From an uncultured Eubacteriales bacterium (GTDB lineage: Bacteria; Bacillota; Clostridia; Christensenellales; Aristaeellaceae): a DNA stretch of 64,000 nt. Shown here piece after piece: positions 23,034-24,837 of this stretch; positions within the stretch are counted from its first letter, which is position 1, and every line of letters starts with the position of its first letter. The notes under the pieces were generated by a model. The model was not told the origin of the DNA. It saw nothing but the letters and a program-made list of their open reading frames with translations, and ran no database searches. A program made the position numbers and the translations under genes. The stretch spans positions 62,001 through 126,000 of the forward strand of contig CADBZH010000010.1 of NCBI GenBank assembly GCA_902799045.1, in the 5' to 3' direction.

Positions 23034-23062
23034 TTGACAAACGGTTTTTCGTGTGGTATTAT
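23034..23062 (+). promoter_or_regulatory. Strong promoter of the structured RNA gene
   Basis: TTGACA (23034-23039), 17 bp, TATTAT (23057-23062). Transcription should start near 23069. Confidence 0.9.
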
Positions 23063-23068
23063 ATACCC

Positions 23069-23366
23069 AGAAAGAGGGAGAACACAGAAACCTCTTCGGA
23101 GATAGCAGATCTCCAATCAAACAGAACGGGAGGCGATGCCATTGTACTATAGCGAAGCACAGTCCTTGGCCTGCATTTCCCGAAGGATTCGTAAATGACA
23201 ATTCATCGGGACCGGATTTCAAGTGAAGCACAGGTCATCATGTGAAGTGGAAATGATTGCTCACGGGAAATGCAGGCACCCTTTGATACTCCGGGCAGGG
23301 AGTTTCAAATAGAAAAACTCAATACAGGTTCCAAGTCCCGCCGGCAGCAGATGCCGGCGGGTTTTT
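23069..23366 (+). ncRNA. Probable stand-alone structured RNA, about 300 nt, class not identified
   Basis: It is bounded by a near-consensus promoter and a strong intrinsic terminator, with no sensible open frame. Visible helices: AAGAGG/CCTCTT, GGAGAT/ATCTCC, a perfect 13-bp stem CCTGCATTTCCCG/CGGGAAATGCAGG enclosing about 85 bases, ACTCC/GGAGT, GAGTTT/AAACTC, then the terminator. The following gene has its own promoter, so this looks like an independent RNA rather than a riboswitch. I looked for tmRNA, RNase P, SRP, T-box and common riboswitch signatures and recognised none; a divergent 6S RNA or another clostridial RNA class remains possible. Confidence 0.7.
23337..23366 (+). terminator. 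Intrinsic terminator of the RNA gene
   Basis: CCCGCCGGCA / TGCCGGCGGG stem with a five-base loop and a TTTTT tail. Confidence 0.93.
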
Positions 23367-23439
23367 GCGCCCAAGACCGCGCCTTGAGCGCAGAATATGA
23401 CGCGATTCGCGCGAAATGGGTCCGTTTTTGCGCCGCGTA

Positions 23440-23468
23440 TGGACTTTTCTTTCCGCCGCCCCTATAAT
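23440..23468 (+). promoter_or_regulatory. Promoter of small secreted protein gene
   Basis: TGGACT (23440-23445), 17 bp, TATAAT (23463-23468). Confidence 0.75.
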
Positions 23469-24344: not shown

Positions 24345-24373
24345 TTGACAAACGCCGGAATTTGTTGTATTAT
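24345..24373 (+). promoter_or_regulatory. Promoter of tRNA cluster
   Basis: TTGACA (24345-24350), 17 bp, TATTAT (24368-24373), 40 bases before the first tRNA. It is the same -35/-10 pair as the RNA gene at 23034. Confidence 0.9.
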
Positions 24374-24412: not shown

Positions 24413-24488
24413 GGGAGCATAGCTCAGCTGGGAGAGCATTTGCCTTACAAGCAAAGGGTCACAGGTTCGAGCCCTGTTGTTCCCACCA
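24413..24488 (+). tRNA. tRNA-Val (anticodon TAC)
   Basis: A 76-base cloverleaf with acceptor GGGAGCA / TGTTCCC, anticodon loop CTTACAA, T-loop GGTTCGAGCC, and an encoded CCA end. First of five tRNAs in one transcript. Confidence 0.96.
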
Positions 24489-24492
24489 ATGT

Positions 24493-24569
24493 GGTGCGGT
24501 AGTTCAGTTGGTTAGAATGCCAGCCTGTCACGCTGGAGGTCGAGGGTTCGAGCCCCTTCCGCATCGCCA
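24493..24569 (+). tRNA. tRNA-Asp (anticodon GTC)
   Basis: A 77-base cloverleaf with acceptor GGTGCGG / CCGCATC, anticodon loop CTGTCAC, T-loop TTCGAGC, and an encoded GCCA end. Confidence 0.96.
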
Positions 24570-24572
24570 TTT

Positions 24573-24648
24573 GCCCAGGTAGCTCAGTCGGTAGAGCAGT
24601 AGACTGAAAATCTACGTGTCGATGGTTCGATTCCGTCCCTGGGCACCA
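24573..24648 (+). tRNA. tRNA-Phe (anticodon GAA)
   Basis: A 76-base cloverleaf with acceptor GCCCAGG / CCTGGGC, anticodon loop CTGAAAA, T-loop GGTTCGATTCC, and an encoded ACCA end. Confidence 0.96.
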
Positions 24649-24651
24649 TTT

Positions 24652-24727
24652 GCGGTAGTAGCTCAGTTGGTAGAGCGCCACCTTGCCAAGGTGGAGGTCG
24701 CGAGTCCGAGTCTCGTCTACCGCTCCA
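24652..24727 (+). tRNA. tRNA-Gly (anticodon GCC)
   Basis: A 76-base cloverleaf with acceptor GCGGTAG / CTACCGC, anticodon loop TTGCCAA, and an encoded TCCA end. A spacer with the hairpin CGGCGAACGC / GCGTTCGCCG (about 24735-24757) separates it from tRNA-Cys and may guide processing. Confidence 0.95.
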
Positions 24728-24762
24728 TTTTTTACGGCGAACGCCTGCGTTCGCCGCAATTT

Positions 24763-24837
24763 GGTGCCATAGCCAAGTGGTAAGGCAAAGGTCTGCAAAA
24801 CCTTCATTCCCCGGTCCGAATCCGGGTGGCACCTCCA
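24763..24837 (+). tRNA. tRNA-Cys (anticodon GCA)
   Basis: A 75-base cloverleaf with acceptor GGTGCCA / TGGCACC, anticodon loop TCTGCAAAA, T-loop GGTCCGAATCC, and an encoded TCCA end. Confidence 0.95.

Follow-up and report, generated by a model that had tools for sequence, protein, structure and literature searches.

Ribosome-dependent attenuator leaders of the trp, erm and tna type carry a leader peptide, and for the dual-function RNAs RNAIII, SgrS, SR1 and VcdRP the peptide is known as a product. We have analyzed a structured RNA gene that is like these RNAs in some respects, found in a window (the whole stretch of DNA that was analyzed, 64,000 nt) from an uncultured Eubacteriales bacterium. 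Such attenuator leaders, the uORF candidates of PMC11109978 included, share with this RNA a short ORF that has a good start site and pairs in part with RNA downstream, and an intrinsic terminator at the end; the present RNA, however, was found without a constant downstream gene, its terminator lies outside the predicted switch, and its ORF has no run of one amino-acid codon. According to PMC7298713, rnTrpL of Sinorhizobium, which encodes the peptide peTrpL, is likewise short, contains a mini-ORF and has a terminator at its end; it comes from the cis attenuator of the trp genes, begins at its ATG and acts in trans, whereas the present gene stands alone and has a 5' leader and a long-range helix. 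The dual-function RNAs (PMC8672173) are also structured regulatory RNAs and contain a small ORF, but in the present gene the length and place of the ORF are kept rather than the peptide; within the genus, its promoter, ORF and terminator are conserved.

Positions 23034-23366 of the window are a real structured RNA gene with a near-consensus promoter and a strong terminator. The sigma-70 type promoter, TTGACA-N17-TATTAT with a TG before the -10 box (23034..23062, + strand, as are all features of the gene given below), has 11 of the 12 consensus bases, and its TTGACA hexamer is identical in 27 of the 27 sequences of the genus alignment. With the start placed from the -10 box and the end at the T run of the terminator, the gene extends over ~300 nt (23067..23366) and contains, in order, a 5' hairpin GGAGAT-AGCAG-ATCTCC (23098..23114; predicted fold and covariation), a Shine-Dalgarno sequence GGGAGG (23128..23133) 8 nt 5' of a TTG codon, a small ORF starting at this TTG (23142..23198; peptide MYYSEAQSLACISRRIRK, stop TGA at 23196-23198), a long-range helix with its 5' arm in the ORF, a third hairpin predicted from the fold alone (23282-23309), the element AAAACTCAATA (23314..23324) and an intrinsic terminator (23337..23366), which consists of a 10-bp stem-loop (23337-23361) followed by TTTTT and has a stem sequence highly conserved in the genus. 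The 5' arm of the long-range helix, GCCTGCATTTCCCG (23169..23182), corresponds to ORF nt 27-40, and the 3' arm, CGGGAAATGCAGGC (23264..23277), lies 81 nt beyond it; both were assigned by pairing and covariation, and together they form 14 perfect pairs. The fold energy of the RNA (23069-23369) was -105.5 kcal/mol against -81.8 +/- 5.25 kcal/mol for 100 shuffles (z -4.5), and 0 of the 100 shuffles folded as low.

A previous reading made from the letters of the DNA, here called the sequence-only reading, had proposed that this place holds the gene of a structured RNA of no identified kind, equipped with a promoter and a terminator of its own. Both signals are present as it described them, and the perfect long-range stem exists, although with 14 pairs instead of the 13 bp that it gave. 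Its remark that the hexamers are common to the tRNA operon downstream was also correct, since the operon promoter at 24345 has identical hexamers and spacing. Judged from the promoter, the RNA would be transcribed at a high, growth-linked level. The operon itself contains tRNAs Val, Asp, Phe, Gly and Cys at 24413-24837 (ARAGORN), and the whole or a part of it is located near the RNA gene, in either orientation, in many of the congeners listed.

The gene is widely distributed in the genus. A DNA search of 120 relatives gave matches in 29, namely in 26 of the 28 genus genomes searched and in 3 others; genus genomes G006 and G023 gave no match by this search or with the covariance model described below, and the three matches outside the genus (G035, G097 and G104) are pieces of 20-33 nt. 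The locus in G035 (L030) was read and rejected as a member, with none of the plan present. Genome G005 supplies two diverged copies to the genus set of 27 sequences and is the only genus genome in which two were seen; the genome of the window has one. These two copies (L027 and L031) both lack the Cys codon described below, and the stem is kept in both save for a few unpaired cells. Exact core matches were found in 15 named records with the titles Clostridia or Clostridiales bacterium, and those with a named source are from roe deer or sheep gut (RUG in such names means rumen uncultured genome).

Covariation was counted over the 27 sequences for 28 pairs in three helices, namely the hairpin at the 5' end, the long stem (12 of its pairs) and the terminator. 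Paired cells make up 97.9% of 756, and the cells with both sides changed number 21, against 4.0 +/- 1.7 in shuffles, a control that leans towards the counted structure because this structure came from RNAalifold. Two-sided changes are seen in 7 pairs, some of them in the long stem, for which the sequence-only reading had suggested a covariation test; in the 5' hairpin, two of six pairs show them in 6 of the 27 sequences. When the structure was slid along the alignment, the paired fraction dropped to 33-50%, and RNAalifold by itself predicts the three helices among others. The promoter and terminator, the covariation and the presence in 26 of 28 genus genomes thus support the proposed RNA gene.

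For assignment to known RNA families, the whole window was scanned with cmscan (Rfam 15). At gathering scores only the five tRNAs were found, with no match at 23034-23366, and at E up to 10 the RNA region gave a single match, Pseudomon-groES, which was rejected as chance with 14.5 bits (gathering 50) on the opposite strand over the terminator; the Rfam scan that the sequence-only reading had proposed therefore produced no credible match. Ten loci that hold relatives, drawn from nine genera, likewise gave no Rfam match. The tmRNA, raiA RNA and 6S RNA are alike structured, of roughly similar size and encoded in the same genome, but each is a separate gene. The tmRNA (RF00023) and raiA RNA (RF03072) models have no match in the RNA region, and both identities were rejected, the tmRNA of the genome being located at G000:C31:2994-3344 (160.5 bits) and its raiA RNA at L170:1526-1744 (196.1 bits). 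A divergent 6S RNA, one of the two suggestions of the sequence-only reading, is not supported either, because the 6S model (RF00013) gave no match in the RNA region at E up to 10 and the 6S RNA of the genome lies at G000:C10:127407-127583 (58.6 bits), 1.4 kb past the window end.

It might still be a divergent second 6S RNA, since some Firmicutes carry two 6S genes and the size range and the presence of structure would suit. With no match at E up to 10, a genuine 6S RNA elsewhere, and a plan of an ORF plus a long-range helix that is unlike the bulged rod of the 6S RNA fold, we regard this as extremely improbable. The other suggestion, an undescribed RNA class, is supported within the range of Rfam 15 and open-licence papers, among whose listed matches no title on such an RNA was found.

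The statement of the sequence-only reading that there is no open frame was mistaken. The frame that begins at TTG 23142 behind GGGAGG is open in 27 of the 27 genus sequences, with 18 codons in 22, 20 codons in four and 16 codons in one, while the ends in frame +1 are scattered and frame +2 meets a stop at codon 2 in 22 of 27. In the genus alignment there is one gap run inside the ORF, of 6 nt, and outside it there are 61 distinct gap runs, 16 of which are multiples of 3. The ATG at 23136, two codons 5' of the TTG, is not conserved and is replaced by GTG, TTG or GTT in some congeners. Coding could not be inferred from substitutions, because the pN/pS of frame 0 (1.00) lies within the values of the shifted frames (0.73-1.45), which makes this ratio unusable as coding evidence; the codons past the stem change freely (pS 0.59, pN 0.58). 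The data thus speak for translation of the frame at 23142-23198 but do not point to a conserved peptide, and the peptide is probably mostly a by-product. The non-coding reading of the RNA is contradicted, as far as sequences can tell, by the conserved start, stop and frame.

Relatives in other genera of the family were collected in two ways. A covariance model (R1) built from the 27 genus sequences was run over 300 family genomes and matched 58 of them at E <= 0.1, 26 in the genus and 32 in other genera. For 20 of these 32 genomes the places were fetched, and 14 members (L062-L069, L071 and L075-L079) were kept and six dropped; L070, L073, L074 and L080 have only the tail (by eye), L072 is a BFD-like gene and L081 a DUF1292-like gene. 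The start-site pattern was also searched in 160 family genomes. It occurs at 63 places, which are spread over 56 genomes and 26 genera, whereas the reversed pattern matched 15 times, and 57 distinct rows were obtained by leaving out six more of the genus. A TTGAC promoter is present within 320 nt upstream in 25 of the 57 rows, and the ORF has 16-22 codons in all of these 25, which belong to 11 genera (g1, g2, g6, g7, g10, g17, g18, g31, g35, g38 and g45). Among the 32 rows without this promoter, the ORF has 16-22 codons in two, L131 (g6) and L117 (g39, with TTTACA), and the genera with the plan number 12 when g39 is counted. The remaining 30 rows have longer or shorter frames, the long ones including seven DUF1292-like genes and one BFD-like gene.

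In 11 further genera of the family, the relatives have a very different sequence but follow the same plan, in which the start site GGRGG-N8-UUG/AUG opens an ORF 16-22 codons long. Two relatives from g31 and five from g7 use ATG to start. That UUG serves as a start codon in this setting is separately indicated by the DUF1292-like genes and the BFD-like gene, which begin at a very similar site (30.1 bits at a cut-off of 24 for the L126 protein, and 60.7 bits for the BFD-like gene). When one representative of each of the 12 genera was taken, the ORF had 16-22 codons in every one, and the product of the shuffle probabilities was 5e-11, a value for which L117 was picked with knowledge of its ORF and L131 was dropped as the promoter filter had found none. 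As a control, among 14 representatives, frame +1 has 16-22 codons in 6 and frame +2 in 0. A script found the terminator in 16 of 20 representatives, the exceptions being L068, L069, L071 and L115, and in L068 and L069 it is seemingly present by eye. A structured RNA with no credible Rfam 15 match is thus spread over 12 genera of one family, and the named records are gut metagenome assemblies.

A purely non-coding structured RNA, in which the frame is a coincidence of conserved sequence, should be considered against these data. The uninformative pN/pS and the 6 of 14 in frame +1 agree with it, and the strong sequence conservation around the start site could represent a binding site. We judge it quite improbable, however, because 12 genera that differ in sequence have retained the frame, its length and its stop, TTG and ATG are exchanged at the start, and the DUF1292-like and BFD-like genes are headed by a very similar start site.

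When 396 genomes of the order were searched with the model under strict filters, 14 from other families matched at E <= 0.01. Three of these matches (L098, L100 and L101) were read and look spurious, resembling gene ends followed by a terminator, and seven of the other 11 cover only model positions from 240 on. As far as seen, the RNA gene is family-restricted and autonomous.

The long-range helix is tied to the ORF across genera. Helices were searched without restriction to the ORF, with the 5' arm allowed anywhere between 60 nt upstream and 150 nt downstream of the start, the 3' end at most 420 nt from the 5' end of the helix, and G-U pairs and one mismatch tolerated, and each representative was compared with 40 shuffles. 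For 17 of 20 representatives, the best helix obtained in this way has 11-19 bp and is located at ORF nt 22-48, and in 14 of these 17 it is better than 40 of 40 shuffles; for L078, L069 and L117, respectively, 4, 1 and 2 of the 40 shuffles were as good. This search did not recover the helix at ORF nt 22-48 in L071, L151 and L154, and in the MFE fold of L154 it is present with a bulge. The partner segment lies 81-176 nt beyond the 5' arm, and the stop codon follows the end of the 5' arm by 2-19 nt (9-13 nt in 13 of the 17). Six genes that have the same start site but a longer ORF served for comparison, and in each of them 10 or more of the 40 shuffles equaled the real sequence; the best stems of two of these controls, L125 and L072, are still within the interval of ORF nt 22-48. 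The arm sequences differ widely among genera and are still complementary (e.g., GCCGCCCGCCTT/AAGGCGGGCGGC and GGTTCATCTGCTTTGCCC/GGGCAAGGCAGATGAACC); the start site, the ORF of 16-22 codons, the TTGAC promoter, the helix and the stop distance co-occur across genera with divergent arms.

The RNA may alternatively be the mRNA of a small protein, with the peptide of 16-22 residues as its product and with a helix and a terminator that do no more than protect or tune this message. The start site, length and stop are conserved in agreement with this, and, by eye, several genera have in common a Met-Tyr/Asp start and a Cys that precedes a hydrophobic residue and, in many cases, Arg. The peptides are barely alike between genera, however (e.g., MYYSEAQSLACISRRIRK, MDQETLVTFFKAARLEPKA and MYNEETHQVSPVLAAK), pN/pS is 1.00 in the genus, and a long structured part 3' of the ORF is retained; furthermore, the Cys sits in a helix arm, and its conservation is therefore explicable by base pairing. 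We consider this reading unlikely, though worth keeping in mind. A type I toxin mRNA silenced by its own fold would account for the small ORF, the strong folding and the long-range pairing. The peptides look polar and charged by eye, not hydrophobic as expected for such toxins, the genome of the window has one copy and two were seen only in G005 among the genus genomes, and no antisense promoter-like site was detected within the RNA by a consensus scan, which cannot exclude one; such a toxin is very improbable here.

To the reading that this is an autonomous structured RNA with its fold gated by a ribosome on its own mini-ORF, which is drawn from the sequence features above, we give about an even chance. 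The start site would be accessible and load ribosomes; a ribosome on the last codons or in termination would cover the 5' arm and open the helix, which would close when there is no translation. To judge from the known ribosome footprint, the end of the 5' arm would be covered when a ribosome stands at the stop codon, and therefore translation and the helix should exclude each other. Whether or not its frame is being translated would then decide between two states of the RNA, in the manner of an attenuator leader and with no gene behind it. Because there is no gene behind this leader-like RNA, its output would be in trans, via the 3' arm once it is freed or via a refolded middle part, or would depend on RNA stability.

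The gating was modeled in silico by holding the start site, the ORF and 15 nt beyond it single-stranded during folding. In these predictions, opening the ORF costs 25-40 kcal/mol and necessarily removes the long helix, and the terminator is retained in nine of nine RNAs (W, L003, L020, L023, L025, L062, L064, L068 and L154; for L062 and L068 the folded sequence also included a part of the promoter at its 5' end). No single alternative structure shared by the nine ORF-open folds was apparent, and since the terminator also stays formed, the change that the switch would bring about is not visible in these predictions.

The classical counterpart of the gated RNA, a cis-acting attenuator or leader of a downstream gene, has a leader-peptide-like ORF, a helix and a terminator in the same order, and by sequence the ORF overlaps one helix arm as it would in such a leader. 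By eye, the g31 relatives have a gene that begins no more than about 100 nt past the terminator. When the neighbors were compared in flanks of at most 1.5 kb (only 165 nt for L017), a relative of the next gene of the window was co-oriented at 12 of 26 congener loci but opposite at 3 and not found at 11, so that the 26 loci have no constant co-oriented downstream gene. Listing of downstream ORFs gave no discrimination in this G+C-rich DNA. In addition, a separate promoter-like site at 23440 belongs to the gene that comes next in the window, the terminator is still formed in the predictions when the ORF is held open, and no mutually exclusive terminator and antiterminator were predicted. A cis attenuator is thus a poor candidate, with a small probability.

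The plan of a helix in a mini-ORF, a stop at a set distance and no constant gene behind is known from attenuators and here stands alone. If the ribosome gating is true, an attenuator-like sensor works as a free RNA, and, on this plan, RNAs catalogued as non-coding could depend on their translation. A further proposal, which we offer tentatively and hold to be rather unlikely, is a class of free-standing, ribosome-gated RNAs, in which the mini-ORF would be a sensor and not a message; the ORF length and stop position would be selected so that a translating or terminating ribosome holds open one arm of the long helix, and the RNA would act in trans in one of its states, reporting translation capacity or Cys supply. 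Cys supply is named as a candidate signal because many members, though not all, have a Cys codon within the arm; a cysteine sensor is therefore only a guess.

Several leaders and elements resembling parts of the RNA were observed elsewhere. The DUF1292-like genes L112-L114, L125-L128 and L081 (g14, g15 and one more genus) have a long leader that begins much like the RNA, e.g., with GAGCCAAAGGGA in L081, and in L159 (g9) such a leader was noted about 200 nt before the DUF1292-like start. These leaders contain TGACACGGCG in L112-L114, L126-L128 and L081, not in L125 and L159, and end in a start site like GGGGCGATTCCATTGTAC; perhaps the DUF1292-like leader is a structured, autoregulatory leader of its own. 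A derivation of the RNA from DUF1292, or a control of DUF1292 by it, would fit the shared start site, but the DUF1292-like genes that were read in g1 (L169), g2 (L164), g6 (L163) and g7 (L166) are without this site. In L072:1064-1230 (g3), which is a BFD-like [2Fe-2S] gene, the 5' end CCAGAAAGAGAGAGAA, the hairpin and the start site resemble those of the RNA. By a scripted pattern, a AAAACTGAATA-like element similar to the one 5' of the terminator is present in 11 of 20 representatives. AAAACTGAATA was considered as a possible rRNA-type element; of its four genomic sites, one precedes tRNA-Ser and another the raiA RNA, and no link to rRNA was seen. The sequence standing before the raiA RNA (L170:1526-1744) is AAAACTCAATA.
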